Below, piece after piece: positions 17,511 to 49,692 of a stretch of 64,000 nt of DNA. The position numbers were made by a program, and so were the translations under genes. The notes below the pieces were generated by a model. It was given only the letters and a program-made list of their open reading frames with translations, was not told the origin of the DNA and made no database searches. Numbering within the stretch: the first letter of the stretch is position 1; the number at the start of each line of letters is the position of its first letter. Source of the stretch: Thermococcus sp. JdF3 (GTDB lineage: Archaea > Methanobacteriota_B > Thermococci > Thermococcales > Thermococcaceae); the NCBI RefSeq assembly GCF_012027495.1, contig NZ_SNUK01000004.1, forward strand, positions 1 to 64,000, written 5' to 3'.

Positions 17511-17527
17511 AACCTTAGGTTTTGAAC
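17511..17527 (+). promoter_or_regulatory. SurR-type site below the TATA box of the CoA-disulfide reductase
   Basis: The sequence is AAC-CTTAG-GTT-TTG-AAC, a complete match (nine of nine fixed bases, on the minus strand) to the extended SurR consensus GTTn3AACn5GTT. It overlaps the 3' end of the TATA element CTTTTTAAC and runs toward the start site. That position should block transcription when reduced SurR is bound and release it when sulfur oxidises SurR. Confidence 0.75.
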
Positions 17528-17544
17528 CTCTTCTGGTGATGCTC

Positions 17545-18870
17545 ATGGGGAAGACGGTGGTTATCATAGGCGGTGGTGCGGCCGGAATGAGTGCTGCCTC
17601 TCGCGTTAAGAGGCTCAAACCCGAGTGGGACGTCAAGGTTTTCGAGGCAACGGAGTGGGTCAGCCACGCCCCCTGCGGCGTGCCCTACGTTGTCGAGGGC
17701 ATCTCGCCGAAGGAGAAGCTCATGCACTACCCGCCGGAGGTCTTCATCAAGAAGAGGGGTATAGACCTCCACATGAGGGCGGAGGTTGTTGAGGTTGACC
17801 AGGGGGCGGTCAGGGTCAGGGAACCCGATGGGGAGCACACCTACGGGTGGGACTATCTCGTCTTCGCCAACGGCGCCTCCCCCCAGGTTCCGGCCATAGA
17901 GGGCTGTGAGCTTGAAGGCGTCTTTACAGCGGACCTTCCGCCCGATGCCGTTGCCATAACCGAGTACATGGAAAAGCACGATGTCAGGAACGTTGTTGTC
18001 ATTGGAACAGGTTACATAGCCCTTGAGATGGCCGAGGCCTTCGTCGCCCAGGGTAAGAACGTCACCCTCATCGGCAGAAGCGAGCGTATCCTCAGGAAGA
18101 CATTTGACAAGGAGATCACCGACATCGTTGAGGAGAAGCTCAAGGGCGCCCTCAACCTCCGCCTTCAGGAACTAACGATGCGCTTTGAGGGCGATGGAAA
18201 AGTCGAGAGGGTTATCACGGACGCCGGTGAGTACCCTGCGGATATGGTGATCGTGGCGACGGGCATAAAGCCCAACACCGAGCTCGCTAGGGAGCTGGGG
18301 GTCAGGATTGGAGAGACCGGGGCCATCTGGACCAACGAGAGGATGGAAACTAGCGTCGAGAACGTCTACGCCGCCGGTGACGTCGCTGAGACGAGGCACC
18401 TGATAACCGGCAGGCGCGTCTGGATACCGCTTGCCCCGCCCGGAAACAAGATGGGATACGTTGCCGGAAGCAATATCGCCGGAAGGGACGTGATCTTCCC
18501 GGGCGTTCTTGGAACGAGCATAACCAAGTTCCTCGACCTGGAAATAGGAAAAACCGGTCTAACCGAAGCGGAGGCTATCAGGGAGGGCTACGACGTCAGG
18601 ACTGCCTTCATAAAAGCCGGCACAAAGCCGCATTATTACCCCGGTTCGAAGCCGATATGGCTCAAGGGGGTCGTTGACAACGAGACCAATAAACTCCTCG
18701 GCGTTCAGGTCGTCGGCGCCGAGATACTGCCCAGGGTCGACACGGCTGCAACGATGCTCACCGCGGGTTTCACCACGAAGGATGCCTTCTTCACGGATCT
18801 AGCCTACGCACCGCCCTTCGCCCCGGTCTGGGACCCGCTCATAGTTCTTGCCAGGGTTCTCAAGTTCTGA
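17545..18870 (+). CDS. CoA-disulfide reductase / NAD(P)H polysulfide oxidoreductase
   Basis: A cytoplasmic flavoenzyme of 441 residues. Relatives in Pyrococcus and Thermococcus reduce CoA disulfide or polysulfide/sulfur with NAD(P)H, or act as NADH oxidase. The FAD site [13 protein letters not shown] is at the N-terminus, the single active-site cysteine is Cys44 in HAPCGVPYV, the NAD site is [15 protein letters not shown], and the second FAD motif reads [12 protein letters not shown] 17545 is preferred to GTG 17536 and ATG 17539 because GGTGA then has normal spacing. The SurR site in its promoter supports a role in sulfur metabolism. Confidence 0.93.
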
Positions 18871-18876
18871 CTCCTC

Positions 18877-20121
18877 TCACTTTTTCAGCAGGGCGATACT
18901 CCCCCCAATCAGGGCAAGCGCGAGACCAAACGCCGCACCAAATCCCGTCGATGATATGAGTGCCCCGCTTATGGCGCTGCCCGTGATGTATCCCGCCGAG
19001 CTGACGACGTTGTAAGTCCCCATTGCACTGCCCTTCTCCTTTTCTCCCGCCCTCTCGCTCACTATGGCGGTCGAGGAGATTCCGATGAAGGCCCAGGAGT
19101 AGCCCGCCAGGATGTAAGAGGCGAAAGCCAGCGGAAGCAGCGCTGGGGAGACCAGCATTCCGAGCACCATCGCAGCGAAGGCCCCGGCGCGGAGGAGCAG
19201 TCCCTTTTTCAGGATTCCTTCCTTTCCGCCTCTCATTGCGGCCCCAACGCGGGTGTAGTTCATCGCCGAGACCGCGGAGTTGGCTATGAGTGCCAGGTAC
19301 ACAACCTCCCTCGTGTAGCCCTCACTCGTGAGGAGCACCGGCATCTGGGGGAAGTAGAGGCCCGCCGCTATCCAGAAGAGCAGGAAGGCTACGTAGAACC
19401 TCCCCAGGCCCTCTGGAAGGCTGAAGTTGGTGTGGAGTATGAAGCTGGGGAAGTAGCGGGCCTTTTCGACGACGTAGTTGCCGAACGCTTTGATAGCCCG
19501 TCTGTTGATGTATATCGGAGCCTCCCGTATCATCCGCTCCCCCATGAAGACAGAGGGCAGGCCCAGGATGGCGAAGGCGAGGAACAGCTGGGGCATGGTC
19601 AGGAACCTCGACAGGCCGAAACCGAGAACCAGCCCAAGGACCCACCCCCAGCCGCTTATCTCGTTGAACTTGCCGATGGCGTGGTCCCAACTGTGCTTCC
19701 TGACGCTCCTCAGCACGAGGGCTATGGGGACCGATAGGGTGGAGGCGAGGAAAAATGCGTATACCGTGTTTACCGCGATGAGCTGAGCCGGGGTCTTCAC
19801 AAAGGCCATCGCCGTGAGGAAGAGCGGAACGCTGGCAAAGCCGAGGAGTATGAACGGTTTCCTCCGCAGTGTCCCGTCGCTCACCCTGCCCCAGAACAGC
19901 GCGCCGAGCATCGAGGCCAGGCTTGCAAGGGCGAAGGTCAATCCAACGGTTGAGGCGTTCCCCCCGAGCTCCAGGAGGTAGAGGCTCACCAGGGCGGAGC
20001 TTCCGCCGGTGGCCACCTTGAACGGCACGAAGGAGTAGAACCACCTGGGCATCTTGGGGATGTAGCGGTAGCGGTTTGCTACCGATGCGTTCCTCACCGC
20101 GATGGCAACTCTCTGACTCAT
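18877..20121 (-). CDS. MFS transporter
   Basis: A 414-residue membrane protein with about 12 hydrophobic segments in two six-helix halves. The loop after helix two reads GRVSDGTLRRKP, the major facilitator signature. The start is ATG 20121, preceded by AAGGTGG and, near 20160, the TATA-like TTTTTAAACC; the longer open frame upstream covers the promoter itself. Substrate unknown; a drug or sugar exporter is possible. Confidence 0.88.
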   Translation of the reverse strand: MSQRVAIAVRNASVANRYRYIPKMPRWFYSFVPFKVATGGSSALVSLYLLELGGNASTVGLTFALASLASMLGALFWGRVSDGTLRRKPFILLGFASVPLFLTAMAFVKTPAQLIAVNTVYAFFLASTLSVPIALVLRSVRKHSWDHAIGKFNEISGWGWVLGLVLGFGLSRFLTMPQLFLAFAILGLPSVFMGERMIREAPIYINRRAIKAFGNYVVEKARYFPSFILHTNFSLPEGLGRFYVAFLLFWIAAGLYFPQMPVLLTSEGYTREVVYLALIANSAVSAMNYTRVGAAMRGGKEGILKKGLLLRAGAFAAMVLGMLVSPALLPLAFASYILAGYSWAFIGISSTAIVSERAGEKEKGSAMGTYNVVSSAGYITGSAISGALISSTGFGAAFGLALALIGGSIALLKK

Positions 20122-20244
20122 TTTTCCCACCTTGAGGCCTCCGGGAGGCCGGTTTGGTTTAAAAAGATTCGTGACGCGGAGGATACTGTAATGTTCAGAA
20201 TGGTTCATTCGGTGGGCCCGGAATAAAGAAGGAAGAAGAAACCC

Positions 20245-20985
20245 TCATATTTCGAGGACGTATTTCAGGCTCTCGTCGGAGAAACCCTTGAAGCAGCCGA
20301 GCTTCAGCTGGAGTATCGCCCTTTCAATGTTCACGACCTTCATCGAGGCCAGGTGGGTCACCCCGGTGCCCTGGAGGAACTCCGGGAGAACCTGTCCTGT
20401 GGGGCCTGTCAGGAGGAAAATTCTGGCATTCTTTGCCCTGTCAAGCAGCATGTCGAGGGTTCCGTTGATCATGCAGGAGGCGCTCGCAAGCACCGCGTCC
20501 ATCTCCGGCAGCAGCCAGTACTCCAGGGAATCGCTCAGCGTTCCCCTGTCCCAGAGCTTCGGGTTTCTCTCGAAGACGTAGAGCTCCAAGCTCCTCTCCC
20601 GCAGGGCCCTGACTATCGGCGGCATGTTTCCGATGACCGCTACCTTTTCGATGTCACCGTCGAGCAGTTCCACGGCGTCAATCCACTTTGCACTGCTGAG
20701 GTCGATGTAGTACTGCGAAACCGCGTTTATCGCCGCCAGACCGAGGGACCTCTCGATGACGTTGAGGCTGTCGGCCTTTTCAATGAACGCCTCCAGAGCA
20801 GGCTCCTCGATGGAGTTGTCGAATCTCTGTATCTCCTCTGGCAGGGTCATGGCAACCCCCAGTGCTTTCCCCCTCTCCCCTTCAACCAGCACGTAGGTGT
20901 AGGGGAGGCCAAAGGAGAAGTCCAAGACTCTGAGGTCCTCATCGATGAGCCTCAGGGCCTTTTCCTTGAACTCAGTCAGCAGCAT
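20245..20985 (-). CDS. DUF364-type Rossmann-like protein
   Basis: A soluble protein of 246 residues in two parts: an N-terminal alpha/beta domain (DUF4213-like) and a C-terminal Rossmann-like domain with VAVIGNMPPIVRALRE and LLTGPTGQVLPEFL. This matches the DUF364 family, which has been proposed to bind heavy metals or metal chelates. There are few cysteines. It stands alone between two promoters. The biochemical role is unknown. Confidence 0.75.
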   Translation of the reverse strand: MLLTEFKEKALRLIDEDLRVLDFSFGLPYTYVLVEGERGKALGVAMTLPEEIQRFDNSIEEPALEAFIEKADSLNVIERSLGLAAINAVSQYYIDLSSAKWIDAVELLDGDIEKVAVIGNMPPIVRALRERSLELYVFERNPKLWDRGTLSDSLEYWLLPEMDAVLASASCMINGTLDMLLDRAKNARIFLLTGPTGQVLPEFLQGTGVTHLASMKVVNIERAILQLKLGCFKGFSDESLKYVLEI

Positions 20986-21098
20986 ACGAACACCCCGCTT
21001 CCAACATTTAGCGCCCCCTGTTTTGACTTCACATCTTCTGATTTTGAACCTTCCGCCCGGGTCTCCGTCAATCCCCGGTGGGCAAACCTTATACGCTT

Positions 21099-21112
21099 TT
21101 AGGTTAACCTAA
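21099..21112. promoter_or_regulatory. Perfect 14-bp palindrome at a radical SAM promoter
   Basis: The perfect palindrome TTAGGTTAACCTAA lies between the TATA element (AACCTTATAC, 21086-21095) and the expected start of transcription. A related inverted repeat with the same outer bases, TTAGG-N4-CCTAA, sits at 36091-36104. This is a candidate repressor site. Confidence 0.45.
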
Positions 21113-21125
21113 TTCCGGTGGTGAC

Positions 21126-22076: not shown

Positions 22077-22108
22077 TTATTCGGGAAACTAGTTTACCGG
22101 GGAGGGCC

Positions 22109-23554: not shown

Positions 23555-23558
23555 TACC

Positions 23559-24695: not shown

Positions 24696-24752
24696 GCAGG
24701 CGAACCAGAAGCCGTTTATAGAACCTCTTCCTATTTTCCATCGGTGAATCCC

Positions 24753-27227: not shown

Positions 27228-28244
27228 TCAGCAGACCCTCGGAACTGGGTCTCCGGCAGGTGGCTCAAGGAAGCGCTTTCCGCCTATGCCGGTCTCAACC
27301 AGAACCCTACCCCTGTAGTCCCCTATGACTTCGCCGATTATCGCCGCGTTCCTTCCCCGCTTCGTGCTCCTCATGGCTTTCAGGGCTTCCTCAGCGTATT
27401 CCCTTGCAACGGCCATGACGACCTTGCCCTCGTTCGCCACGTCGAAGGGGTTTATGCCCAGCATATCGCTTGCCGCCCTGACCTCCGGCCTGACCGGTAC
27501 GTCGGATTCCCTTATGAGGATTCCCACGTTGGCCTTCTTGGCCATCTCGTTGAGGGCGTTGCTCAAGCCGCCCCTGGTGGGGTCCTTCATCGCATGGATG
27601 TTCTCCCAGCCGATGGTCTCTGCAACCGCCTCGACGACCTCCCATATCGGCGCAACGTCGCTTTCAAGCTCGGTCTCGAAAGCTATGCCCTCGCGGTGGC
27701 TCATCAGGGCTATGCCGTGGTCTCCAGCGGTCCCGCTGATAAGAACGGCATCGCCCACCTTCGCTCCGGCGTCGCTTATCGGCCTCTCTGCGATTCCTAT
27801 CCCGGCTGTCACGACGAAGATGCCGATGTCCTCTTCGACGACCTTTGTGTCGCCGGTGACGATTGGAACGGGGACTTCCCGTGCAGTTTCATCCATCGAG
27901 CGAAGGATTCTCCTCAGATCTTCGCCGTCGAAGCCCTCTCCGATTATCATGGAGTTGGCCAGGGCCAGTGGCCTCGCCCCCATCACCGCGAGGTCGTTCA
28001 CGGTTCCGCTAACCGCCAATCTGCCAATGTCCCCTCCGGGGAAAAACAGCGGCTTGACCGTGTGGCCGTCTATTGTAAACACGAGGTGCTTATCGCCAAA
28101 GGGTATCGTTGCCCCGTCGTCGAGTGCGTCCAGCCCTATTCCCCCGGCCGATTTCAGGCTCAGCGTCTTCAGAATAACGTCCCTCAAAAGCTCCTCCATT
28201 ATTTCTCCGCCGGCTCCGTGTTCGAGCTTTATCTTTTCACCCAT
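27228..28244 (-). CDS. hypE: Hydrogenase maturation protein HypE
   Basis: HypE dehydrates the carbamoyl group passed on by HypF to form the cyanide ligand of the [NiFe] centre. The 338 residues begin IKLEHGAGGEIMEELL and end in PRVC, whose C-terminal cysteine carries the thiocarbamate/thiocyanate. The PurM-like core has GDTKVVEED and DPTRGGLSNALNEMA. ATG 28244 is chosen since GGAGGG then has good spacing, whereas TTG 28250 directly abuts it. It directly follows a broken HEPN gene, apart from the other hyp promoters. Confidence 0.95.
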   Translation of the reverse strand: MGEKIKLEHGAGGEIMEELLRDVILKTLSLKSAGGIGLDALDDGATIPFGDKHLVFTIDGHTVKPLFFPGGDIGRLAVSGTVNDLAVMGARPLALANSMIIGEGFDGEDLRRILRSMDETAREVPVPIVTGDTKVVEEDIGIFVVTAGIGIAERPISDAGAKVGDAVLISGTAGDHGIALMSHREGIAFETELESDVAPIWEVVEAVAETIGWENIHAMKDPTRGGLSNALNEMAKKANVGILIRESDVPVRPEVRAASDMLGINPFDVANEGKVVMAVAREYAEEALKAMRSTKRGRNAAIIGEVIGDYRGRVLVETGIGGKRFLEPPAGDPVPRVC

Positions 28245-28246
28245 CT

Positions 28247-28369
28247 TCAACCCTCCAAAAGGCCTTTATCCCTCAGGTATGAGTGGGTGAAGTCGAAAAA
28301 TTCCTCAGCACGCCTTATCTGGGAGAGAGCGTCCTCCTCGCTGAAAAGGATTTTGGAGTAAGTGCTCAT
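28247..28369 (-). pseudogene. Truncated HEPN-domain gene
   Basis: A 40-codon frame starts at ATG 28369, overlapping the nucleotidyltransferase stop by ATGA. It reads FSEEDALSQIRRAEEFFDF, the first helix of a HEPN protein, then stops at 28247. Intact HEPN partners of MNT nucleotidyltransferases have about 110-140 residues and an RX4-6H motif, both missing here. The rest appears deleted, with hypE starting two bases after the stop. It could still be expressed as a short peptide. Confidence 0.6.
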
Positions 28370-28692
28370 ACCTTTGTGCCCTCCCTCTGAACCGAGATTA
28401 TGAGGGGATCTTCGGCCATGCCCGGCCCCTCCACGTAGGGTATCAGGGATATCACTATCCCCCTGTCGATGGCATACTCGTCCCTCGCCTTGGTGATCTC
28501 CTCAAGCTCCTCCTCGCTTGGCCACCTTTTCAGGAGCAGCAGAACGTCCACGTCGCTACCTTCGGTAGCATCGCCGCGGGCGTAGGAGCCGAAGAGGATG
28601 ACATCCACCAGGTTGTCTCCGAGTATTGCCTCAAGCCTCGCCCTGACCTCCCGCAGGATTTCCATGAGCTCTTTCCTCTCAATCGGGGACAT
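28366..28692 (-). CDS. Minimal nucleotidyltransferase (MNT, MntA-type antitoxin)
   Basis: A 108-residue protein with the polymerase-beta-type motif GSYARGDATEGSDVDVLLLL, holding the two metal-binding aspartates. MNT proteins usually form toxin-antitoxin pairs with HEPN RNases and inactivate them by AMPylation. The expected partner follows by ATGA overlap but is cut to 40 residues, so this is an orphan antitoxin or a decaying system. Confidence 0.88.
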   Translation of the reverse strand: MSPIERKELMEILREVRARLEAILGDNLVDVILFGSYARGDATEGSDVDVLLLLKRWPSEEELEEITKARDEYAIDRGIVISLIPYVEGPGMAEDPLIISVQREGTKV

Positions 28693-28739
28693 CCGTCACA
28701 CCCGTTTACATAGTCGCTTCCCTTGGTTAAATCATTTCC

Positions 28740-31058
28740 TCACAGCATCAGGTCCTCCCTTGAGAGGTAGCCCTCCAGGTAGAGGCCACCGAGGAAGGCC
28801 TGACCGACGTTTAGTCCGTTGTCGCCGCGCGGAACCTCATGGGTTGTGTGGAAGTTCAGTCCTGCGGCCTCGACGATCTTTCTGGCGGTCTTGACTATAA
28901 GCTCGTTGAATGCGACGCCGCCGCTTATTCCAACGTTTTTAACTCCAAACTCCCTCGCCCTTTCTATGGCAGTTTCGGCGAAGGCCCTCCCGAGGGCAAG
29001 GTGGGCCGAGTAGGCTATGTCCGCCGGACTGGCGGTGTCCATGACATCAAGTGCCCGGGCGAAGAGCTCCTCCACCCTTATCAGCTCGCCGTCAACCGGA
29101 ACCTCGAACTTCAGGTCGTTCTTCCCGCGCATCGCGAAGCTCTCCAGCTTCATCGCAGGTTCGCCCTCGTAGTGCCTCCTGTATGCAACGTTGAGGAGAA
29201 CCGAGAGGGCATCGAGAACCCTGCCTGTTGATGATGCGTAGCTCGTGTTGACATCCTTCGCCAGCTGGGTCAGAACCACGTTGAACTCCACCCTCCCGTA
29301 GCGGAGGCTCTCGATGGCCTTCGGACAGCATCTCTCGATTATCCCCTCAAGCTCTTCGACACCGTAGACTTTGCTCAGGATGCCCATCAATGCCCTCAGA
29401 GGGTAGTAGCTGGCCAGATCTCCGCCCGGGAGCGGGTAATAGTCTATATGGGCCAGCCTTTCGACGTCCTCGTAGCTCAGGTATATCACCTCGCCGCCCC
29501 AGGTGTGGCCGTCGGTTCCGTAGCCGACCCCATCAACGGCTATGCCTATTATCTCGTCCAGCTTCCGCTCGGCCATGACGCTCGCTATGTGTGCGTAGTG
29601 GTGCTGCACCTGGAGGAACTCCACGTTTAGCTCGTTGGCCATCTCCATGGCGAGCTTTGTGGTGTTGTAGCCCGGATGCAGGTCTGCGACGATGAGGTCG
29701 AACTCATTGACGCGGAGAATCCTCTTGAAGTGCTCTATGGCTTCCTCCATGAACTCAAGAACCTCGACCTTGGAGGTGTTCCCGATGTACTGACTGGGAT
29801 AAACCCTTCCGTTTTTGACGACGCCAAAGGCGTTGAGAAGCTCCGCCCCGACGGTCAGGCCGCGGTAGCTGAAGGGTATCTCTATAGGCAACGGCACGAA
29901 GCCGCGGGAGCGCCTTATCACCGCCCTCCTTCCGTTGACGAACCTGATGACGCTGTCGTCGGCCCTGTTGAGTATCCTCCTGTTGTGGAGGAGGAAGTAG
30001 TCCGCAACATCCTTCAGCTCCTCAAAGGCCCTCTCGTTGTCCTTGACCATCGGCATTCCGGGATAGTTGGCCGAGGTCATAACGTAGACCTTTGCCCTGC
30101 TCCAGTGGAAGAGTATGTAATGCGTTCCCGCGTAGGGGAGCATGACGCCAATCGTGTGGAGGCCCGGTGCGAGGTTCTCCGGCAGGGGGAAGGGCTCCTT
30201 CTTACGGAGGGTTATTATCGGCCTCCTGTAGGAGGTCAGCTCCTCCAGCTCCTCCGGTGAGAGGAATGCGAACTCCTCAACGGTCTCGACGTCCCTCGCC
30301 ATTATCGCGAATGGCTTCTGCGGCCTGTGGGTTCTCCTCCTGAGTTCAGCCACGACCTCCTCGTTGCTCGCGTCGCAGGCGAGGTGTATTCCGCCGATAC
30401 CCTTGATGGCCACTATGTACCCCTTGTCTATGAGCTCGGCCGCCTTTTTCAGCGGATCGCCGATGATTTCCTCTCCATCGTTCGTGTAGAGCCTGTAGCT
30501 CGGCCCGCAGACCGGACAGCAGACCGGTTCCGCATGGTAGCGCCTGTTGAGCGGGTCTTTGTACTCGCTCTCGCAGAAGTCGCACATCGGGAACTCTCTC
30601 ATCGTGGTGTTGATTCTATCGTAGGGCAGATCCTCGATTATAGTGAACCTGGGCCCGCAGTTGGTGCAGACGATGAAGGGGTACATGTAGCGCTTGTCAG
30701 TCGGGTTGAATAGCTCCCGCAGGCAGTCGTCACAGATTGCTATGTCCGGAGGGATTATCGAGTCCCCGCCTTCCCCGCCCTGGGAGCTCTTCTCGATGTA
30801 GAACCTGTCGAAGCCCTGGGGAGGGAGTTCCTTCTTCTTTATCCTGTCTATCCGTGCAAGTGGAGGAAGCTTCTCCCGGAGGTCTCGCAGAAAAGCCGCT
30901 ATATCCTTCTCCCTGCCCTCGACGACTATCTCAACTCCCGCATCGCCGAGGTTCTTAACGTAACCGCGTAGGTTGTGCTCGTGGGCTATCCTGTAGACGA
31001 AGGGCCTGAATCCAACGGCCTGAACGATGCCCTGAACGTGAAGCCGGTAAGCTTTCAT
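28740..31058 (-). CDS. hypF: Carbamoyltransferase HypF
   Basis: HypF makes carbamoyl-adenylate from carbamoyl phosphate and ATP and passes the carbamoyl group to HypE for the CN ligands of [NiFe] hydrogenase. The 772 residues contain in order an acylphosphatase domain (VQGIVQAVGFRPFVYRIA), two zinc fingers (CDDC..CTNC and CDFC..CPVC), a YrdC-like domain, and a Kae1-like C-terminal domain with HHYAHIASVMAE. ATG 31058 follows GGTGAG with five bases between; GTG 31067 lies inside that site. It is transcribed alone, from a promoter with a SurR site. Confidence 0.95.
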   Translation of the reverse strand: MKAYRLHVQGIVQAVGFRPFVYRIAHEHNLRGYVKNLGDAGVEIVVEGREKDIAAFLRDLREKLPPLARIDRIKKKELPPQGFDRFYIEKSSQGGEGGDSIIPPDIAICDDCLRELFNPTDKRYMYPFIVCTNCGPRFTIIEDLPYDRINTTMREFPMCDFCESEYKDPLNRRYHAEPVCCPVCGPSYRLYTNDGEEIIGDPLKKAAELIDKGYIVAIKGIGGIHLACDASNEEVVAELRRRTHRPQKPFAIMARDVETVEEFAFLSPEELEELTSYRRPIITLRKKEPFPLPENLAPGLHTIGVMLPYAGTHYILFHWSRAKVYVMTSANYPGMPMVKDNERAFEELKDVADYFLLHNRRILNRADDSVIRFVNGRRAVIRRSRGFVPLPIEIPFSYRGLTVGAELLNAFGVVKNGRVYPSQYIGNTSKVEVLEFMEEAIEHFKRILRVNEFDLIVADLHPGYNTTKLAMEMANELNVEFLQVQHHYAHIASVMAERKLDEIIGIAVDGVGYGTDGHTWGGEVIYLSYEDVERLAHIDYYPLPGGDLASYYPLRALMGILSKVYGVEELEGIIERCCPKAIESLRYGRVEFNVVLTQLAKDVNTSYASSTGRVLDALSVLLNVAYRRHYEGEPAMKLESFAMRGKNDLKFEVPVDGELIRVEELFARALDVMDTASPADIAYSAHLALGRAFAETAIERAREFGVKNVGISGGVAFNELIVKTARKIVEAAGLNFHTTHEVPRGDNGLNVGQAFLGGLYLEGYLSREDLML

Positions 31059-31107: not shown

Positions 31108-31124
31108 AACCAAAAGTTAAAAAC
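31108..31124 (-). promoter_or_regulatory. SurR-type site before hypF
   Basis: On the minus strand this reads GTT-TTT-AAC-TTTTG-GTT, a complete match to GTTn3AACn5GTT. The TATA element (ACCTATAAAG) follows directly, so the site is in the activating position. A second, slightly imperfect site (GTT-TTC-AAC-CTTTG-GTG, plus strand) lies at 31134-31150 across the hypD stop codon. Confidence 0.75.
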
Positions 31125-31150
31125 CGGGGAGGAGTTTTCAACCTTTGGTG

Positions 31151-32263
31151 TCAGAACAAAGCTCCGTATTTGTAGAAGATGCTGCAGGTTCCTTCGTAAG
31201 AGACCATGCACGGCCCTATCGGACTCCTGGGCGTGCATGTCTTCCCGAAGTGTGGACACTGCGGTGGCAGGGCAAGTCCGCGCAGTATTGCGCCGCAGAT
31301 GCAGCCCTTTTCGAGGTCCGGGAGCTCGGGAACCTCCGGGTCGTAGTACGTCCTTATCTCCAGCTCCCTCCACTCCTTCCTGAGTTCGAGGCCGCTCTTG
31401 GGTATGGTTCCAAGGGCGCGCCACCTGGCGTCCCTGACCTCGAAGAACATCTCCATGAGCTTCTGAGCAACAACGTTGCCCTCGTACTTTACGACCCTGG
31501 TGTACTCGTTGAGTATCTTGGCCTCACCGTTCTTGACCATCCTAACGAGGAGCAGTATGCCCATCAGCATGTCCACGGGCTCGAAGCCGGCTATGACCTG
31601 CGGTATGCCGTAGTCCCTTGTTATGTACTCCCAGCCTTTGACGCCTATTATGGTCGAAACGTGGCCGGGATCGATAAGTCCGTGGAAGCGCGTTCCGGCC
31701 TTCACGAGGGCCTCAACGGCAGGGGGAGTCAGACGGTGAACGGAGTAAATCTTGAAGTTTTCAATTCCTTCCTCGACGACGGCGTTCAGCATTCCTGCCG
31801 CCGGGGCGGTTGTGGTTTCGAAGCCGGGGCTGAAGTGGACGACGGTTCTGTCGGGGTTCTCTCTGGCTATCCTGTAGGTGTCGTAGATTGAGTAGACCAC
31901 CCTCACGTCGTAGCCCTCGCTCCTCAAGTCTGCAAAGCTCCCGAGCGGGGTGGGTATCTTGTACATGTCCCCGAAGGTGGTCAGGATTATTCTGTCCCCC
32001 TCGGCGTAGGCCTCTTTCATAATCTCGCGCATCTTGACGATGTCCTCGACCGGCGTTATGCAGACGGGACAGCCCGGCCCGCTGACTATCTTAATGTTAT
32101 CCGGTAAAAGTGAGCGTATCCCGGAGCGGGTTACCGTATCTTCGTGCGTCCCGCAGACGTGCATGAAGCGGAGCTCATCGAGGCCCTTTGCCTCCTCCCG
32201 TATCTTCCTCACGACCTTCTGGGCCAGTTCCCTGTCCTTGAAGGCGTTCAGGACATCGGTCAT
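31151..32263 (-). CDS. hypD: Hydrogenase maturation protein HypD
   Basis: HypD is the Fe-S scaffold on which, with HypC, iron receives its CN and CO ligands. The 370 residues show the conserved cysteine motifs MHVCGTHED and GPGCPVCITP, and the C-terminal cluster-binding cysteines in KGCICGAIL, QCPHFGKTC, GPCMVSYEGTC. ATG 32263 follows GGAGGGGTGA; the longer open frame has no such signal. It starts two bases after the hypC stop. Confidence 0.96.
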   Translation of the reverse strand: MTDVLNAFKDRELAQKVVRKIREEAKGLDELRFMHVCGTHEDTVTRSGIRSLLPDNIKIVSGPGCPVCITPVEDIVKMREIMKEAYAEGDRIILTTFGDMYKIPTPLGSFADLRSEGYDVRVVYSIYDTYRIARENPDRTVVHFSPGFETTTAPAAGMLNAVVEEGIENFKIYSVHRLTPPAVEALVKAGTRFHGLIDPGHVSTIIGVKGWEYITRDYGIPQVIAGFEPVDMLMGILLLVRMVKNGEAKILNEYTRVVKYEGNVVAQKLMEMFFEVRDARWRALGTIPKSGLELRKEWRELEIRTYYDPEVPELPDLEKGCICGAILRGLALPPQCPHFGKTCTPRSPIGPCMVSYEGTCSIFYKYGALF

Positions 32264-32490: not shown

Positions 32491-32539
32491 TTTCTCTCAC
32501 CTGTGATTAGTTCTCGCGGGCCTTTTTAGGGATTTTTTA

Positions 32540-32556
32540 AACCTCTGGTTTTCAAC
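32540..32556 (-). promoter_or_regulatory. SurR-type site between hypCD and the MobA-like gene
   Basis: On the minus strand it reads GTT-GAA-AAC-CAGAG-GTT, a complete extended SurR match, followed directly by the TATA element GGTTTAAAAAA of hypC. On the other side, the MobA-like gene has a TATA-like CCCTAAAAG at about 32563 and seems leaderless, so one site could serve both. Confidence 0.75.
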
Positions 32557-32591
32557 CGTCAACCCTAAAAGTCCGAAATCCAACGGATATC

Positions 32592-33188
32592 ATGCTCGGT
32601 GCGGTTCTTGCCGGTGGCAGGAGCAGGCGCTTCGGGGACGATAAGCTCCTCTTCAGGATAGACGGGAGGCCGCTCATCCTGCACGCCATCGAGAGACTTG
32701 AGTCTGCATCGCTGATACGGGAGGTCGTTATAGTTGCATCTGCCGACAACGCGGGGAAGCTGGGGCACCTCGGCTATGGTGTCGTGGTCGATGAGCTCTC
32801 TGTCGGACCCATCGGGGGAGTCTATACGGCGTTGGGCCTCGGCGATGCCTTCGTCGTTGCTGGCGACATGCCGCTAATCGTCCCGGAATTCGTTGATTAC
32901 ATAATTCGTGAATTCGGGAAAAATGGAAAAGCAGTCTGCGTTCCGCGCTGGGACAACGGTTACCTGGAGCCACTCCATGCGGCCTATTCTGAAGAATTTA
33001 GGGGTTTTCTTGGGGAGAAGATAAAGTCCCGGGATTACGCCCTCAACCGGGCAATAAGGGAGTCGAACCCCTGCTATGTCTCCATAGAGGCCCTTCCAGA
33101 GGAATGGCGGGGGAGCTTCTTCAACGTGAACACGCGGGAGGACTTGAGAAGGGTCAGAGACCTTCGGGGGCGTAGATTGGAACGTTGA
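32592..33188 (+). CDS. mobA: MobA-like nucleotidyltransferase
   Basis: A 198-residue protein of the MobA family, which attaches GMP to molybdopterin to make the tungsten/molybdenum guanine-dinucleotide cofactor. It opens with the nucleotide motif [20 protein letters not shown], then has VVAGDMPLI. Related NTP transferases act on sugars or on CTP, so the substrate is not certain. It diverges from hypC across a promoter with a SurR site. Confidence 0.8.
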
Positions 33189-33365: not shown

Positions 33366-33842
33366 TTAATACCCTTTTCCCAGAATCTCCATCAGCAGTT
33401 CCACGAGTTCCTCCGCCCGCTCCAGTATTAGTGCACTCGGCTCCTGGAAAAGGCCCAGAACCGCCGGCTGGCAGCCGATGAGGACGAACTCCGCGTTGAG
33501 GCGCGTCTTCAGGTAGCCCACAAGAACCCTGAGCGGCAGGCTGTGGGTCGAGACCGCCTCTCCGAGAGTCCCCTCCGGGTCGGCGATTATGACCTCTCCG
33601 TGCTCCCCGCCGAAGTCAACCGCATCCACGAAGACCACCAGATCCGGCTCGAATTTTGTTATCTTTCCAGTGTAGCTCTCCGGAACCTCACCGCAGTTGA
33701 GAATGAGAACGTTCGGATTATTCACCAGTTCCTTCAGCTTCTCGGCAACGATGACGCCGAAGGCATCGTCCCCCCTAACCTCGTTTCCTATTCCGCAGAC
33801 GACGACCCGTTTGGCCCTCCTGAGGAGTTTGGGGAATTCCAT
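33366..33842 (-). CDS. hycI: Hydrogenase maturation protease (HycI/HyaD family)
   Basis: This nickel-dependent endopeptidase removes the C-terminal tail of a [NiFe]-hydrogenase large subunit after nickel insertion. The 158 residues carry the metal ligands in GIGNEVRGDDAFG (Glu), FVDAVDFG (Asp) and STHSLPL (His), and the loop IGCQP of the HycI type. It follows hypB by 47 bases and is probably cotranscribed with hypAB. Confidence 0.92.
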   Translation of the reverse strand: MEFPKLLRRAKRVVVCGIGNEVRGDDAFGVIVAEKLKELVNNPNVLILNCGEVPESYTGKITKFEPDLVVFVDAVDFGGEHGEVIIADPEGTLGEAVSTHSLPLRVLVGYLKTRLNAEFVLIGCQPAVLGLFQEPSALILERAEELVELLMEILGKGY

Positions 33843-33889
33843 AGTTTCACCTTTAACGGGCTTTGGGATGGAGAAAAGAAAAACCTTCG

Positions 33890-34621
33890 CTAAATCCTCT
33901 CCGCGACCTCCCGTATCCTCTCCGCGAAGGCCGTCCTCAGGAGCTCATCGGGCTTCCCTATCTTGTCTTCCAGGTCCCTGTACAGCGGTATACCGGTTAG
34001 GTAGGGCACGTCAAACCTCTTTGCCAGCTCCTCTATGTCCTTCTCCTCGTCCAGTTTGAGGTTCTCGACGATTCCGAGGATTTTGTATTCCCTTTCCCTC
34101 AGAACCTCGATGAGCTTTCTGACGACGTTGATGGCCAGCTTTGACGGTGTTGCCACCACGATGAATTCACCCTTCTTGAGGAAGCGCATGACGTCGAGGA
34201 ACTGGTCTCCAAGGCCGGGCGGCATGTCTATGATGAGGTAGTCCAGCTCGTCCCAGCGGGTTATTGTGAGGAGTTCTATGAGGGCGTCGCTGACCTCCAT
34301 ACCCCTCATGGGCGTCGGCTTGTCCTCGGAGTAGTAGACGATGCTCATGAACTTTATCCCGTGAACCGCCGGCGGGATTACTCCGTACTCCTCCTCCGGG
34401 AACTCCTCTGGCTCGAAGCCGAGGATAACGTGGTCGCTCGCGCCGTGGAAGTCGAGGTCCAGCAGGCCGACCTTATAGCCCTTCTCTGCCAGGACGAGGG
34501 CCAGCGTAGTCGAAACCAGCGACTTTCCAACGCCGCCCTTTCCACTGACGACGGGAATGATGCGCTTCACCTTCTCAAGCCTGCCCTCTATGCCCTTGAC
34601 GCGCGGGTCTATGCTTATCAT
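33890..34621 (-). CDS. hypB: HypB-type Mrp/MinD family ATPase
   Basis: The Thermococcales HypB is not the usual GTPase but an Mrp/MinD-like ATPase that helps HypA acquire nickel, as shown for Thermococcus kodakarensis. The 243 residues have the deviant Walker A loop SGKGGVGKSLVST, switch motif LLDLDFHGASDH, and IIDMPPGLGD. Its start overlaps the hypA stop by ATGA, which supports joint action. Confidence 0.93.
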   Translation of the reverse strand: MISIDPRVKGIEGRLEKVKRIIPVVSGKGGVGKSLVSTTLALVLAEKGYKVGLLDLDFHGASDHVILGFEPEEFPEEEYGVIPPAVHGIKFMSIVYYSEDKPTPMRGMEVSDALIELLTITRWDELDYLIIDMPPGLGDQFLDVMRFLKKGEFIVVATPSKLAINVVRKLIEVLREREYKILGIVENLKLDEEKDIEELAKRFDVPYLTGIPLYRDLEDKIGKPDELLRTAFAERIREVAERI

Positions 34622-35037
34622 GCCTCTCCCTCCTTCTCAATCTTTATGCCGCTTATGTAAACCCCCCTGCCCTGCACAACCTCGAAGTCCCTGCTGCCGC
34701 ACTTCGGACAGGCGAGGAAGGCATGAACGACCTCCGGGATGAAGTGGATGTCCTCCTTTATGCGCTCGTCAAAGCTTCCCTTGACCTCTTTAAGCTTCCA
34801 TTCGTGACCGCAGTCACGGCACTTGAAAACCGCCTCCTCCTCTACGAACTCTATCTCCGCCCCCTCTCCTATGGTGCCCTTGAAGAGCTCCCTCATCGCG
34901 AACTCAACTATCTCTGCGTTGACGTCCTGGAGTTCGCCGAGAACTACCTGAACGGCCATGAGCTTAGACGCGCCTTCTTTTTGTGCGTAGTCGAGGGCGG
35001 TTCTAACTATACCATCAGCGAGTGCCCACTCATGCAT
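34618..35037 (-). CDS. hypA: Nickel metallochaperone HypA
   Basis: HypA delivers nickel to the hydrogenase large subunit. It starts MHEWALADGIV, where His2 is a nickel ligand, and has the zinc-binding pairs CRDC and CPKC, separated by a longer insert than in bacterial HypA (139 residues in all, the size of the T. kodakarensis protein). ATG 35037 follows GGAGGG; the longer open frame runs through the promoter. It is the first gene of hypAB-hycI. Confidence 0.95.
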   Translation of the reverse strand: MHEWALADGIVRTALDYAQKEGASKLMAVQVVLGELQDVNAEIVEFAMRELFKGTIGEGAEIEFVEEEAVFKCRDCGHEWKLKEVKGSFDERIKEDIHFIPEVVHAFLACPKCGSRDFEVVQGRGVYISGIKIEKEGEA

Positions 35038-35086
35038 CTCGATCCCTCCGTTTAAATCTTGATCCCCCACGCTTAAAAATGGACGG

Positions 35087-35103
35087 GTTTCAAACCTTGG
35101 GTT
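35087..35103 (+). promoter_or_regulatory. SurR-type site before hypA
   Basis: GTT-TCA-AAC-CTTGG-GTT is a complete match to GTTn3AACn5GTT. It lies a few bases upstream of the hypA TATA element (minus strand ATTTTTAAG, about 35071-35080), and overlaps the stop codon of the upstream membrane protein gene. Confidence 0.75.
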
Positions 35104-36022
35104 CACTGCCAGTCATTTTCTTCATCCTCCACGCCAGAAGGGCGAAGGTGGCCACGCCGAGGAACGCTTCACCCATCACACCGTTGAGCTCAAGGATTAT
35201 GTCGTAGGGCACGAACCAGAAGGCCAGAAAGCCAAGGGCGAGGGCGTAGCGGCCCCTTTCGTCCAGATGGGCGGGTATGGAGTAGAAGTGGAGGGTTAGA
35301 AGCAGTCCCAAGAGGGCGGGTACAATCGGGGACACGGAAGAGTGGGGAAAGGCCGTGAAGGTGAAGAACAGCGTGAAGGACACCAGGAAGCCGTAGACGA
35401 AGGGATGCCCCCTCGGAAGGCCGCGCTTGAAGATGGCTTCCCTCCTCACCCTCCTCGCAAGGAACAGCAGAAGCGCCGTAAGGACGATGGTGAGGGAATA
35501 CTGGAGTGCCGGTGGACGGTAAGGGACGAGGAAGGTGAAGAAAACCACCCCGGACACCAGAAACGAGACGGACGCAATGATAAGCCCCCTCCTTCCCAGG
35601 AGTCTTTCCCCCGAGAACTCGGGGTAGAGGGCATCAACAACCATTATCGGCATGGCTATGCTCATCAGGGAGTGGAATATTGTCAGCCACACCGCCCAGA
35701 CGGTGTTAACTCCCCATACACGCCCGTAAACGCTGAAGACATCCAGGTCCGGCCAGTCGGGGTTGAACCACGACTTTATCACGAGACCCTCCTCCACGAT
35801 GCCGTAGATAAATCCGAGGAGCATGAGCCGGAGGTAGCCCCTTCCCCAGCGCACCCAGACCTCTCTGACGAGGAGAACCCCTGCACCGTAGTATGCCCAC
35901 AGGAACGGGAACGAGAGGGGTTCTGTGAGAACCTCGAGCGGTGGAGTCGAGCCGCTCAGCACCTCGGCGAAGAAAGGTGAGATGAGCGAGAGGATTAAAG
36001 CGACCTTGGTTTTGGGGTTCAT
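35090..36022 (-). CDS. Polytopic membrane protein of unknown function
   Basis: A 310-residue protein with about nine hydrophobic segments. The segment YGIVEEGLVIKSWFNP has the Glu-Glu pair seen in CPBP-type membrane proteases, but the further motifs are not clear. ATG 36022 is chosen because the TATA-like TGTTAAAACC (minus strand, about 36037-36046) would start transcription close to it. Its last codons contain the SurR site of hypA. Confidence 0.65.
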   Translation of the reverse strand: MNPKTKVALILSLISPFFAEVLSGSTPPLEVLTEPLSFPFLWAYYGAGVLLVREVWVRWGRGYLRLMLLGFIYGIVEEGLVIKSWFNPDWPDLDVFSVYGRVWGVNTVWAVWLTIFHSLMSIAMPIMVVDALYPEFSGERLLGRRGLIIASVSFLVSGVVFFTFLVPYRPPALQYSLTIVLTALLLFLARRVRREAIFKRGLPRGHPFVYGFLVSFTLFFTFTAFPHSSVSPIVPALLGLLLTLHFYSIPAHLDERGRYALALGFLAFWFVPYDIILELNGVMGEAFLGVATFALLAWRMKKMTGSEPKV

Positions 36023-36088
36023 GTTTGGCCCTCTTCCCGGTTTTAACATCCATCAGATAGAAGGGCTTTTAAATTGAACTACCCACGG

Positions 36089-41299: not shown

Positions 41300-41320
41300 G
41301 CCTCCCCGTGGGGCGTTTCG

Positions 41321-41943: not shown

Positions 41944-41995
41944 CAGAAGGGAAAGGTTAAATAGCCCCACCTTCACTTCTATCACGGTGGTTCCA

Positions 41996-42565: not shown

Positions 42566-42573
42566 ACCTTTGA

Positions 42574-43998
<1,425 letters not shown>

Positions 43999-44067
43999 AT
44001 TTCATTTCTACGCCAAAGTTAAAAACAGATGGGCCCAAGTATTGTCCAGAAATCAGGGGTGGTTACC

Positions 44068-45899: not shown

Positions 45900-45909
45900 G
45901 GTGATTGCA

Positions 45910-47280
45910 ATGGGAAGGCTCTTTGGGACCTTCGGCGTCAGGGGGATAGCCAACGAAATGATAACGCCAGAGTTCGCCCTCAAGATGGGCATGGCCTTCG
46001 GAACGATGCTCAGGCGCGAGGGCAGAAGGAGGCCCCTCGTAGTGGTCGGAATGGACACCCGCGTTAGCGGGGAGATGCTGAAGGACGCATTGATAAGCGG
46101 CCTCCTCAGCGTCGGCTGCGACGTCATAGACGTTGGAATAGCGCCAACCCCTGCAATACAGTTCGCGACGGCGCACTTCAAAGCCGATGGCGGCGCCGTG
46201 ATAACGGCGAGCCACAATCCACCCGAATACAACGGCATAAAGCTGCTTGAACCCAACGGCATGGGGTTGAAGAAGGAGAGGGAAGCGGTAGTTGAGGATG
46301 TTTTCTTTAAAGACGACTTCGACAGGGCCAGGTGGGACGGGATAGGCGATGTCAGGAAGGAAGACGTCATCAGACCCTACATCGAGGCGATAAAGAGCAG
46401 GGTTGACGTTGAGGCCATCAAAAAGCGGAAGCCCTTCGTTGTCGTTGACACATCCAACGGCGCGGGTAGTTTGACGCTTCCCTATCTGCTCAGGGAGCTC
46501 GGTTGTAAAGTGGTGAGCGTGAACGCCCATCCCGACGGCCACTTCCCCGCGAGAAACCCCGAGCCCAATGAGGAGAACCTGAGGGGCTTTATGCGGATAG
46601 TCAAGGCCCTCGGAGCGGACTTCGGAGTCGCTCAAGATGGCGACGCCGACAGGGCAGTGTTCATAGACGAGAACGGCAGGTTCATACAGGGCGACAGGAC
46701 CTTTGCCCTGGTTGCCGATGCCGTTCTGAGGGAGAACGGCGGTGGACTTCTCGTCACCACCATAGCCACCTCCAACCTGCTCGACGATATAGCGGAGAGG
46801 AACAACGCGGAAGTCATGAGAACCAAGGTCGGCGACCTCATCGTCGCCCGTGCTCTTCTCGAGCACAACGGGACGATAGGGGGAGAGGAAAACGGCGGCG
46901 TTATCTTCCCGGACTTCGTCCTCGGCAGGGACGGGGCGATGACCACAGCCAAGATAGTCGAGATTTTCGCAAAGTCGGGCAAGAAGTTCAGCGAGCTGAT
47001 TGATGAGCTTCCGAAATACTACCAGTTCAAAACGAAGAAGCACGTTGAGGGCGACAGGAAGGCGATAGTGGCCAGGGTGGCGGAGCTCGCTGAAAAGAAG
47101 GGTTACAGGGTGGACACCACCGACGGAACCAAAATTCTCTTTGAAGACGGCTGGGTACTCGTGAGGGCCAGCGGAACGGAGCCGATAATCAGGGTCTTCA
47201 GTGAGGCGAAGAGTGAGGGAAAGGCCGAGGAGTACCTTAAACTTGGGCTGGAGCTTCTGGAGAGGGTAATTGGGGCTTAG
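45910..47280 (+). CDS. Phosphomannomutase / phosphoglucosamine mutase family enzyme
   Basis: An alpha-D-phosphohexomutase of 456 residues. The phosphoserine loop is VITASHNPPEYNGIK, the metal loop DGDADRAVF, the sugar loop GEENGGVIF, and the phosphate loop RASGTEPIIRV. In Thermococcales such enzymes act on mannose and glucose phosphates; the manC context favours phosphomannomutase. ATG 45910 follows GAGGTGATT. It converges on the transporter ATPase gene with a four-base overlap. Confidence 0.88.
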   Translation: MGRLFGTFGVRGIANEMITPEFALKMGMAFGTMLRREGRRRPLVVVGMDTRVSGEMLKDALISGLLSVGCDVIDVGIAPTPAIQFATAHFKADGGAVITASHNPPEYNGIKLLEPNGMGLKKEREAVVEDVFFKDDFDRARWDGIGDVRKEDVIRPYIEAIKSRVDVEAIKKRKPFVVVDTSNGAGSLTLPYLLRELGCKVVSVNAHPDGHFPARNPEPNEENLRGFMRIVKALGADFGVAQDGDADRAVFIDENGRFIQGDRTFALVADAVLRENGGGLLVTTIATSNLLDDIAERNNAEVMRTKVGDLIVARALLEHNGTIGGEENGGVIFPDFVLGRDGAMTTAKIVEIFAKSGKKFSELIDELPKYYQFKTKKHVEGDRKAIVARVAELAEKKGYRVDTTDGTKILFEDGWVLVRASGTEPIIRVFSEAKSEGKAEEYLKLGLELLERVIGA

Positions 47281-48071
47281 CCCCGTTTCCACTCTTCCAG
47301 CAGTTTTCTCCCCTCTTCCGCGCTCCTTGGAACCCGCAGGCCCAGGCTCAGGAAGAGCTCGGCCAGGGGAGGGACATCCAGATTGTGCTCCCTAAGGAGC
47401 TCTGGATTTCCAAGTACCTCTTCGGGAGTCCCGACTGTGATAATCCTTCCGCGATCCATAAGGGCTATCCTGTCGCAGAGCGAGAGGTAATCTGCCTCGT
47501 GGGAAGCAAGGATGACGGTTTTCCCCTCCCCCTTCAGTTCGAGCATGAGCTCCCGCATCAGCCTCTTGCCCCTGAAGTCGAGGTTGGCGAAGGGTTCGTC
47601 GAATACTATTATCTGTGGCTTCATGGCAAGGACGGTGGCTATCGCTATCCTCTTCTTCTCCCCGAAGCTGAGCTCCTTCGTTTCCCGGTTCGCATATTCT
47701 GCCATGCCTACTTTGTCAAGCGCCCACATAACGCGCTCTTCGAGCTCCTTTCCCCTGAGGCCAAGGTTGTAGGGGCCGAATGCAACGTCCTCAAAGACGG
47801 TCGGCGAGAACAGCTGGTCGTTGGGGTCCTGAAAGACTATGCCAACTTTTCTCCTGACCTCTTTCGGGTTCTTCACCGGGTTGACGCCGTCTATGAGCAC
47901 CTTTCCCCTTTTGGGCTTCAGTATGCCGTTGAAGTGCAGCATCAGGGTGCTCTTTCCGGCTCCGTTCGGGCCGAGGAAGCCGAAAAGCTCGCCGTCTTCG
48001 ATAGTAATGTTTATACCAGTGAGTATTTCCCTGCCGCCGTAGGAAAAGTGGACGTTCCTCAGCTCAATCAT
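47277..48071 (-). CDS. cbiO: Ni/Co ECF transporter ATPase (CbiO/NikO)
   Basis: The ATPase of an energy-coupling-factor metal transporter. In 264 residues it has Walker A GPNGAGKSTLM, the signature LSFGEKKRIAIA (SFGE replacing SGGQ, as is common in CbiO), and Walker B IIVFDEPFANLD. It is the last gene of the cbiMNQO operon and overlaps cbiQ by ATGA. Confidence 0.94.
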   Translation of the reverse strand: MIELRNVHFSYGGREILTGINITIEDGELFGFLGPNGAGKSTLMLHFNGILKPKRGKVLIDGVNPVKNPKEVRRKVGIVFQDPNDQLFSPTVFEDVAFGPYNLGLRGKELEERVMWALDKVGMAEYANRETKELSFGEKKRIAIATVLAMKPQIIVFDEPFANLDFRGKRLMRELMLELKGEGKTVILASHEADYLSLCDRIALMDRGRIITVGTPEEVLGNPELLREHNLDVPPLAELFLSLGLRVPRSAEEGRKLLEEWKRG

Positions 48072-48736
48072 ATCAGCAGACCCCCCAGTGCCAGTACCGA
48101 AAGCAGGACCGTGTGAATACTGGGTTTTGGCTCTTCCACCCTTGGAAACTCCCCGAAGCCCCTCGATAGCATGGCCCTGTAAATCCTTCCATTTCGCAGG
48201 TATGTCCGCAGGAATATCTCGCCGATGAGGGAGCCGAGCTTTCTGTAGTATTCCCTCTTTCCGATTCCAAAGGCCCTTGAGTCGAGGGCGCGCTTCATTC
48301 TCGTTGTCTCGTCCACGAAGAGGTCGAGGTAGCGGTAGGTGAACGCCAGTGTGAGGACGAGTATCCGCGGGAATCTTAAGGCTTCCATCTCGGCGAGTAT
48401 CCTTGAGAACCCGACGGAGCTGGTGATAACAACAGCGGTTCCTGCCGAAAGGAAGGCCTTACCGAGGAGCAGGAAAAAGGAATAAACGCCCTCGTGGGTT
48501 ATCGGGCCGAAGGGAGTGTCTACGAGCGTTTCGCCCGGATTGAAAAGTGCAAGAATGAAGAGCAGCCCTTCGAAGCCGAGGAGGAAGCCGAGGTTCTTGA
48601 AAACGCTCTTCTTCGGCCTCATTGTGAGCACAACAACCAGAAACAGAAGCGCAAAGTAGACTAACTCGGTGAGGCTCTTTCTCGTGACCACTCCCATAGC
48701 ATAAAGGAAAATGAAGGGCAGGTACACCTCAGGCAC
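48068..48736 (-). CDS. cbiQ: Ni/Co ECF transporter transmembrane protein (CbiQ/NikQ)
   Basis: The coupling membrane subunit, 222 residues with about five segments. The cytoplasmic coupling helices carry ERTRMKRALDSRAFG-like (here ETTRMKRALDSRAFG) and YRAMLSRGFGEF, matching the two short ARG-type motifs of the family. It overlaps cbiN by eight bases and cbiO by four. Confidence 0.93.
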   Translation of the reverse strand: MPEVYLPFIFLYAMGVVTRKSLTELVYFALLFLVVVLTMRPKKSVFKNLGFLLGFEGLLFILALFNPGETLVDTPFGPITHEGVYSFFLLLGKAFLSAGTAVVITSSVGFSRILAEMEALRFPRILVLTLAFTYRYLDLFVDETTRMKRALDSRAFGIGKREYYRKLGSLIGEIFLRTYLRNGRIYRAMLSRGFGEFPRVEEPKPSIHTVLLSVLALGGLLI

Positions 48737-48977
48737 CCTTCGCGAGCTTTGCTAAACCGTAGCCAACCCCGAAGGTTAGGATGATTCCGAGCAGTCCCAT
48801 GACCACGCTCTGGCCCCAGGTTTCGCCGTAATCGAGGGGAGCGTGGTAAACCGGGTTCTCCTCAAGGCCGACTTTCTCCATAGTGGCTTCGAGTCCATCC
48901 GGATTGCTTGAAGCCAGCGGCAGCACTATCGCCAGCACGACGGCTATAACTACCAGCCCTTTGAAAACCGTTCTCAT
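48729..48977 (-). CDS. cbiN: CbiN/NikN-like small subunit
   Basis: An 82-residue protein with two membrane helices and the PDGLE motif (SSNPDGLEATMEKVG) in the outer loop. Such CbiN/PDGLE proteins assist metal loading of CbiM. It overlaps both neighbours. Confidence 0.9.
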   Translation of the reverse strand: MRTVFKGLVVIAVVLAIVLPLASSNPDGLEATMEKVGLEENPVYHAPLDYGETWGQSVVMGLLGIILTFGVGYGLAKLAKGA

Positions 48978-49588
48978 GCAGGCACCCCCTCCACCGATGG
49001 AAGCTTTGCCCTCACGGCGTAGACTATCAGGACGGTGAGTACCGCTTCACCGATTCCGATTATCGAGTGGTAGCCGGCCATCAGGGTAAGGACTTTGAAG
49101 AACGGAAGGCTGTGGCTCAGGCCTATCTCGACCGATGCGAGGGCAGCTCCAAGAACGACGGAGAGCCAGGCAGCAAAGCCCATGGCAAAGGTTTCGTTGA
49201 GGGACTTGAGCTTGGTATAAATGCCGTAGCCTACGATGGCCCCTATCAGTCCCATGTTGAGGATGTTTGCGCCGATTGCCGTTATTCCTCCGTCCCCGAA
49301 GAGGAGCGTCTGTATGAGCAGAACCGCGGTCATGACTATTACCGCCGCGTAGGGTCCGAGCATTATCGCAACCAGCGTCGCCCCGAGCAGATGACCGCTG
49401 ACGCCCCCTATTATCGGGAAGTTGACCATCTGCGCCGCGAAGATTCCGGCCGCGAAGAGGCCCAGGAGGGGTATCTTCTCCTCCGGGAAGTTCCTGAGCT
49501 TTTTGGCCGCGTAGGCTATCCCGGCTATCGTTATTGCGTAGGTAATCACTATTACCGGTGTACTCAACAGTCCATCCGGGATATGCAA
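48974..49588 (-). CDS. cbiM: Ni/Co ECF transporter substrate-binding membrane protein (CbiM/NikM)
   Basis: CbiM captures the metal with its N-terminal amine and a histidine at the second position. Here the protein must begin (M)HIPDGLL, which requires the TTG codon at 49588. GGAGGTG lies six bases before it, and no ATG or GTG lies between that site and HIPDG. The 204 residues have about seven membrane segments, with INFPIIGGVSGHLLG-like (VNFPIIGGVSGHLLG) in the middle. The SurR site in its promoter suggests nickel for hydrogenases rather than cobalt. Confidence 0.93.
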   Translation of the reverse strand: MHIPDGLLSTPVIVITYAITIAGIAYAAKKLRNFPEEKIPLLGLFAAGIFAAQMVNFPIIGGVSGHLLGATLVAIMLGPYAAVIVMTAVLLIQTLLFGDGGITAIGANILNMGLIGAIVGYGIYTKLKSLNETFAMGFAAWLSVVLGAALASVEIGLSHSLPFFKVLTLMAGYHSIIGIGEAVLTVLIVYAVRAKLPSVEGVPA

Positions 49589-49675
49589 CCTAAACACCTC
49601 CGGTGGTTTTTGTTGTGCTATCAATGGAATAAATAGTAACACGAAATAAAAGCGTTTTTTAAACCGGGTATTACC

Positions 49676-49692
49676 AACCAAAGGTTGAGAAC
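49676..49692 (-). promoter_or_regulatory. SurR-type site before cbiMNQO
   Basis: On the minus strand it reads GTT-CTC-AAC-CTTTG-GTT, a complete extended SurR match. The TATA element GGTTTAAAAAACG follows about 12 bases downstream. It should activate the metal transporter when SurR is reduced. Confidence 0.7.

Follow-up and report, generated by a model that had tools for sequence, protein, structure and literature searches.

SurR-type sites at hydrogenase-maturation, sulfur reductase and nickel/cobalt transporter promoters in a Thermococcales genome

Do the promoters of hydrogenase-maturation genes, a sulfur reductase gene and a nickel/cobalt transporter operon, all within one stretch of archaeal DNA, answer to a single regulator, and can the direction of control be read from the place of its site? 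We asked this of a 64-kb stretch, called the window below, in which an initial annotation had reported five complete matches to the SurR motif GTTn3AACn5GTT. Few redox switches of archaeal energy metabolism have been studied as thoroughly as SurR, whose regulon in P. furiosus (protein PF0095) was reportedly worked out by Lipscomb (2009, 2017) and Yang (2010). The regulator and its motif have been established, as has its role in controlling hydrogenase, hydrogenase maturation and nsr (PMC4463584, citing Lipscomb 2009; PMC10025317; PMC8595942). Also published is a position rule: genes with a site upstream of BRE/TATA are activated, and genes whose site overlaps the TATA box are repressed (PMC10025317, PMC12162507, PMC12401011). 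That SurR controls hyp and nsr is already known.

Five full sites and the promoters that carry them

A pattern scan of the window returned exactly five full matches, at the positions originally reported and nowhere else. Equal numbers in shuffled DNA had been named as an observation that would speak against a SurR reading; dinucleotide shuffles of the window contained 0.21 full matches on average, and at least five occurred in 0 of 100. The short half GTTn3AAC was only mildly enriched in the window (17 versus 10.2 expected). All five full sites occupy promoter positions: by a crude gene call three are intergenic, one overlaps merely a spurious 5' extension of cbiM, and the site at 35087–35103 overlaps the final codons of an ORF (35090–36049) upstream of hypA. 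The nsr, hyp and mobA features are the following:

17505–17512, plus strand: TATA-like box of nsr, invariant in the alignment
17511–17527, minus strand: full SurR site of the nsr promoter, by pattern match
17545–18870, plus strand: nsr (CoA-disulfide / NAD(P)H sulfur reductase), TIGR03385 588 bits, above cut-off; conserved ATG start
27228–28235, minus strand: hypE, TIGR02124 397 bits, above cut-off; downstream of hypF
28740–31058, minus strand: hypF, TIGR00143 871 bits
31092–31099, minus strand: TATA-like box of hypF, by sequence and conservation
31108–31124, minus strand: full SurR site of hypF, by pattern match; 8 bp upstream of the TATA
31134–31150, plus strand: second hypF SurR site, GTTTTCAACCTTTGGTG, one mismatch with the short motif complete; conserved columns
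31151–32263, minus strand: hypD, TIGR00075 435 bits
32266–32490, minus strand: hypC, MCLAVPGKV start in translation
32522–32529, minus strand: TATA-like box of hypCD, by sequence and conservation
32540–32556, minus strand: full SurR site of hypCD
32564–32571, plus strand: probable TATA-like box of mobA, retained by relatives that share the divergent layout
32592–33188, plus strand: mobA, NF001457 227 bits, above cut-off
33366–35037, minus strand: hypA (NF003008), ATPase-type hypB (ParA/NBP35-type ATPase) and hycI (protease, PF01750)
35072–35081, minus strand: TATA-like box of hypA, by sequence and conservation
35087–35103, plus strand: full SurR site of hypAB-hycI

The gene identities given in the initial annotation held for HypF, HypD, HypA, CbiM, CbiQ and the CoA-disulfide reductase by profile, and for HypC by translation. 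The product of the gene that it names hypB is an Mrp/NBP35-type ATPase and not the GTPase. We take an NBP35/Mrp-type ATPase in the hypB position to be the known archaeal HypB type, and presumably the reductase gene at 17545–18870 is of the P. furiosus nsr type. A TATA-like box adjoins each of the five sites, as had been claimed, and the layout proposed for the hypF, hypCD, hypAB and nsr promoters stood, whereas the full site at cbiM lies farther from its TATA box than those of the hyp operons do.

The nsr site covers the last 2 bp of its own TATA box and runs on downstream. The nsr promoter of T. piezophilus likewise has a SurR motif near the start codon, although the short motif alone is given there and the long motif is found here (PMC8595942). 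At the hyp operons the site is upstream of the TATA box, with a gap of 10 bp at hypCD and 5–6 bp at hypA. Most of the other genera have a full match at the second hypF site, which lies 26 bp away from the first, and in one genome (G016) the full match at hypF is the neighbouring site. Transcription from the hypF promoter may extend to hypE, which follows hypF on the same strand. Between the two genes (28250–28740, minus strand) we observed a nucleotidyltransferase gene of the NTP_transf_2 type (28366–28692, 108 aa) adjoined by an ORF of approximately 41 aa, which may be the remnant of its partner; together they are possibly a relic MNT/HEPN toxin-antitoxin pair inside the hyp cluster.

The site at 32540–32556 is also upstream of the divergent mobA promoter, 7 bp from the mobA TATA box. 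We considered whether it might repress mobA as at nsr and dropped this option: the conserved TATA box at 32564–32571 is located beyond the site, which makes co-activation of mobA likelier than repression. No SurR site was present at 18 of 30 mobA loci, so that independent SurR control of mobA is unsupported in general. The genome contains another mobA-like copy (contig C7, 72908–73472), which is apparently broken into two frames, and a full SurR-type site (C7, 73536–73552) lies 64 bp beyond its end.

Conservation of the sites and the sign of control

Full matches number 38 in the whole genome (2.14 Mb) versus 10 for a reversed-pattern control. As proof of enrichment this comparison is good in the window's genus and fails in several other genera, where the reversed pattern is as common as the motif, and orthologous promoters were therefore used instead, scanned over 200 bp upstream in up to 50 genomes of six genera. 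A HypD scan of named genomes yielded few Thermococcales and was left out of the analysis. Full sites were found at hypF in 50/50 genomes, nsr in 46/50, hypC in 28/50, hypA in 26/50 and cbiM in 9/29, and sites with at most one mismatch in 50/50, 48/50, 45/50, 40/50 and 29/29, respectively; the counts are raised by shared ancestry among the genomes, which has less effect on the contrast with flanking columns. Four more cbiM orthologues, all with at most one mismatch and one of them full, bring the totals to 33/33 and 10/33. Shuffled promoter regions give an expectation of 0.05–0.25 full sites and 2–3 with at most one mismatch per set. Conservation is thus strongest at hypF and nsr and weaker at hypA, hypC and cbiM. 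The sites keep a nearly constant distance to the start codon, approximately -66 at surR and at the three hyp operons and approximately -35 at nsr. In the alignments, highly conserved columns cover the site, the BRE/TATA and the ribosome-binding region, with lower conservation in the intervening stretches; this pattern is clearest at hypF and nsr. What we observed directly is that the sites exist, that they are conserved at fixed distances, where they lie relative to the TATA box, and that genes for SurR and NikR are present.

The alignment also refines the motif. We compared 83 distinct full sites taken from the five groups of promoters; they share ancestry and are not independent counts. G occupies base 14 in 71 of them, and base 10 holds C in 55 and T in 18, so that real sites lean towards AACCnnnGGTT. 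This G at base 14 is carried by 24 of the 38 genome matches, and in genome scans the core may help to distinguish true SurR sites from chance matches.

The contig also encodes the regulator itself, at a position outside the window (NF047699, 400 bits versus a cut-off of 250 in a profile search). The protein has a CTEC motif corresponding to the CxxC switch and PF0095 (SurR) as its best PDB match, and 59 of the 61 Thermococcaceae genomes have a member of the SurR family that scores above cut-off. The surR promoter has a full site at -66/-67 in 29/29 genomes, which fits the published autoactivation (PMC12162507). Elsewhere in the genome, full sites adjoin MrpE-type subunit genes (three clusters), a sulfhydrogenase beta subunit gene, surR, a Nfn/sulfide dehydrogenase-type subunit gene and another pyridine nucleotide-disulfide reductase gene. 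These neighbours match known kinds of SurR target and so serve as a positive control. The system resembles the SurR regulon known from PF0095 in its motif, its CxxC regulator, the position rule and target kinds (hydrogenase maturation, nsr and surR itself), and differs in the additional nickel/cobalt transporter with a tandem phased site, in the hypCD site common to divergent mobA and in the AACCnnnGGTT preference.

Can the sign be read from position, gene by gene, as the initial annotation had claimed? The site is upstream of the TATA box, as judged by sequence and conservation, at the hyp operons and the transporter and overlaps it at nsr, so by the published rule hyp should be on and nsr off without sulfur. 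Published work finds mbh, mbs and nsr in agreement with this rule (PMC10025317, PMC12401011), nsr being repressed by SurR (PMC10025317), and HypF and HypE fall on sulfur in T. onnurineus proteomics (PMC4463584). However, transcriptomics of Palaeococcus pacificus with sulfur showed hypF up 10.8-fold and nickel/cobalt transport up (PMC6981617), data that contradict the predicted sign there; mutated and multiple SurR sites have been reported for other promoters (PMC8595942).

The nickel/cobalt transporter promoter

The features of this promoter, all on the minus strand, are the following:

47277–49588, minus strand: operon of cbiM/nikM, cbiN-like, cbiQ and cbiO genes (PF01891; TIGR02454 just under cut-off; ABC_tran)
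49615–49642, minus strand: putative NikR-type operator, GTGTTAC-N14-ATAGCAC, just downstream of the TATA
49645–49652, minus strand: TATA-like box of cbiM, CTTTTATT, supported by conservation
49662–49678, minus strand: second, degenerate SurR site, GTTGGTAATACCCGGTT, 8 of 9 bases, 9 bp from the TATA
49676–49692, minus strand: full SurR site of the transporter operon

Another tract, TTTAAAAAA, was rejected as the cbiM TATA box because it is lost in relatives while CTTTTAT stays. With the TATA at 49645–49652 the full site is 23 bp away, more distant than in the hyp promoters. The full site and the degenerate copy overlap by one GTT, the last triplet of the former and the first of the latter. Beside the TATA box this copy is degenerate in nearly all genomes and a full match in G001, from another genus, and the phase between GTTn3AAn6GTT and the TATA is kept in 28/29 orthologues. 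In four genomes (L424–L427) a diverged CbiM (37–40% identity) replaces the close orthologue, and full SurR sites are present in 4/4 of their promoters, together with ATAACAC-type elements, as if the promoter logic had outlived the replacement of the transporter.

The putative NikR-type operator resembles the consensus GTGTTAC-N13/14-GTAACAC (PMC545781), with 7/7 bases of the left half, 5/7 of the right half and N14 spacing, and a NikR gene is encoded in the genome (PF08753; contig C1, 411895–412125). A NikR-like half-site pair was found with a loose pattern in 22/29 cbiM orthologues; a loose NikR pattern has eight matches in the genome and is not enriched over its control, and of these eight only the match at cbiM has a complete GTGTTAC half. 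The arrangement recalls the delta-proteobacterial nikMNQO nickel regulon (PMC545781) in its GTGTTAC and near-GTAACAC halves, its 14-bp spacing, its place before a nikM/cbiM-type transporter and the presence of NikR; unlike there, the promoter is archaeal, the operator lies just past the TATA box, the right half has 5/7 bases and SurR sites are combined with it. The transporter profiles point to the CbiM type only, with scores below curated cut-offs, and because of the regulatory context we infer specificity for nickel rather than cobalt, so that the operon probably imports nickel.

The degenerate second SurR site and the NikR-type operator suggest dual control of this promoter by sulfur and nickel. 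With SurR activating and nickel-bound NikR repressing, strong uptake would be confined to conditions in which nickel is scarce and hydrogenase is being produced, and nickel supply would likely be switched together with hydrogen production. That nickel import throughout the Thermococcales is gated by these two signals on one promoter (SurR turning it on without sulfur through the tandem phased site, NikR turning it off with nickel) seems to us an evenly balanced proposition; if true, metal supply is wired directly into the hydrogen/sulfur respiratory switch. The promoter offers a compact archaeal two-input system for in vitro work, and adding metal supply to the hydrogenase-maturation switch provides a testable account of how production of nickel enzymes is halted when sulfur appears. 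A link of SurR to nickel uptake or cbiM was not found in the open literature searched, and absent from it were also the second cbiM site with the NikR-type operator, the shared hypCD–mobA site, the second hypF site and the AACCnnnGGTT core. The overall finding is real and mostly expected; its added value is the nickel-transporter promoter.

Alternative readings and further sites in the genome

The explanation that we favor, with a probability of roughly 0.85, is that the five sites are SurR operators through which hyp and the transporter are activated and nsr is repressed, NikR adding repression by nickel. SurR, a sulfur-responsive ArsR-type regulator of Thermococcales, would bind in its reduced form when sulfur is absent. 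Just upstream of BRE/TATA it would activate hypF (probably with hypE), hypCD, hypAB-hycI and the nickel transporter, and at nsr it would occupy the start region together with the last part of the TATA box, causing repression. Sulfur would oxidise the CxxC pair, SurR would leave and the pattern would reverse, while the operator past the transporter TATA would allow NikR to add nickel-dependent repression. The SurR binding, its sign and the NikR step we infer from site position and conservation. The SurR interpretation of the initial annotation is supported by the regulator gene and the conserved sites, but control of hyp and nsr was known beforehand and the cbiM promoter is more complex than it described. 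Besides the Pa. pacificus expression data, the unenriched genome-wide counts in several other genera and the relatedness of the genomes compared, it counts against our explanation that full hypA and hypC sites are absent in some relatives, and that the full cbiM site is not beside the TATA box, the adjacent copy being degenerate.

That the five matches reflect chance or base composition has a negligible probability: the reversed pattern equals the motif in frequency in some other genera, but this reading is ruled out by the window shuffles and by positional conservation in orthologous promoters. It is unlikely, though less remote, that the nickel-transporter promoter is mainly run by NikR, with hyp and nsr under SurR as known and the SurR-like tract weakly bound or belonging to another regulator of the AACCnnnGGTT palindrome. 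The low share of full sites among cbiM orthologues (10/33), the degenerate TATA-side copy, and the presence of both the NikR-type operator and the NikR gene would be expected on such an arrangement; against it stand the 33/33 orthologues with at most one mismatch, where about 2/29 are expected, the phase kept in 28/29 and the full sites of all four diverged CbiM paralogues.

We also hold it improbable that the operators are real while position alone fails to reveal the sign at the hyp operons and the transporter, the outcome being decided in each species by double sites, NikR and other regulators. The rise of hypF and nickel/cobalt transport with sulfur in Pa. pacificus (PMC6981617) speaks for this option, as do the two sites each at hypF and cbiM and the mutated or multiple sites of other promoters (PMC8595942), whereas the fall of HypF and HypE in T. 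onnurineus (PMC4463584) and the agreement of mbh, mbs and nsr with the rule (PMC10025317, PMC12401011) favor SurR operators whose sign follows position.

Further full sites in the genome were observed beside other genes. One (contig C2, 357194–357210) is located between genes for a thioredoxin-like secreted protein (CPHC) and a CcdA-like membrane protein, neither of which had a profile-family match in the searches made, and is a possible thiol-redox target. Another (contig C6, 69818–69834), between amino-acid/proline dehydrogenase-like alpha subunit and sodium:solute symporter genes, is possibly an unlisted SurR target. The 17-base sequence of the cbiM site, GTTCTCAACCTTTGGTT, recurs on the same contig (C6, 44229–44245; 5030–5046 of locus L033), where a phosphopantothenate/pantothenate synthetase gene is close by.
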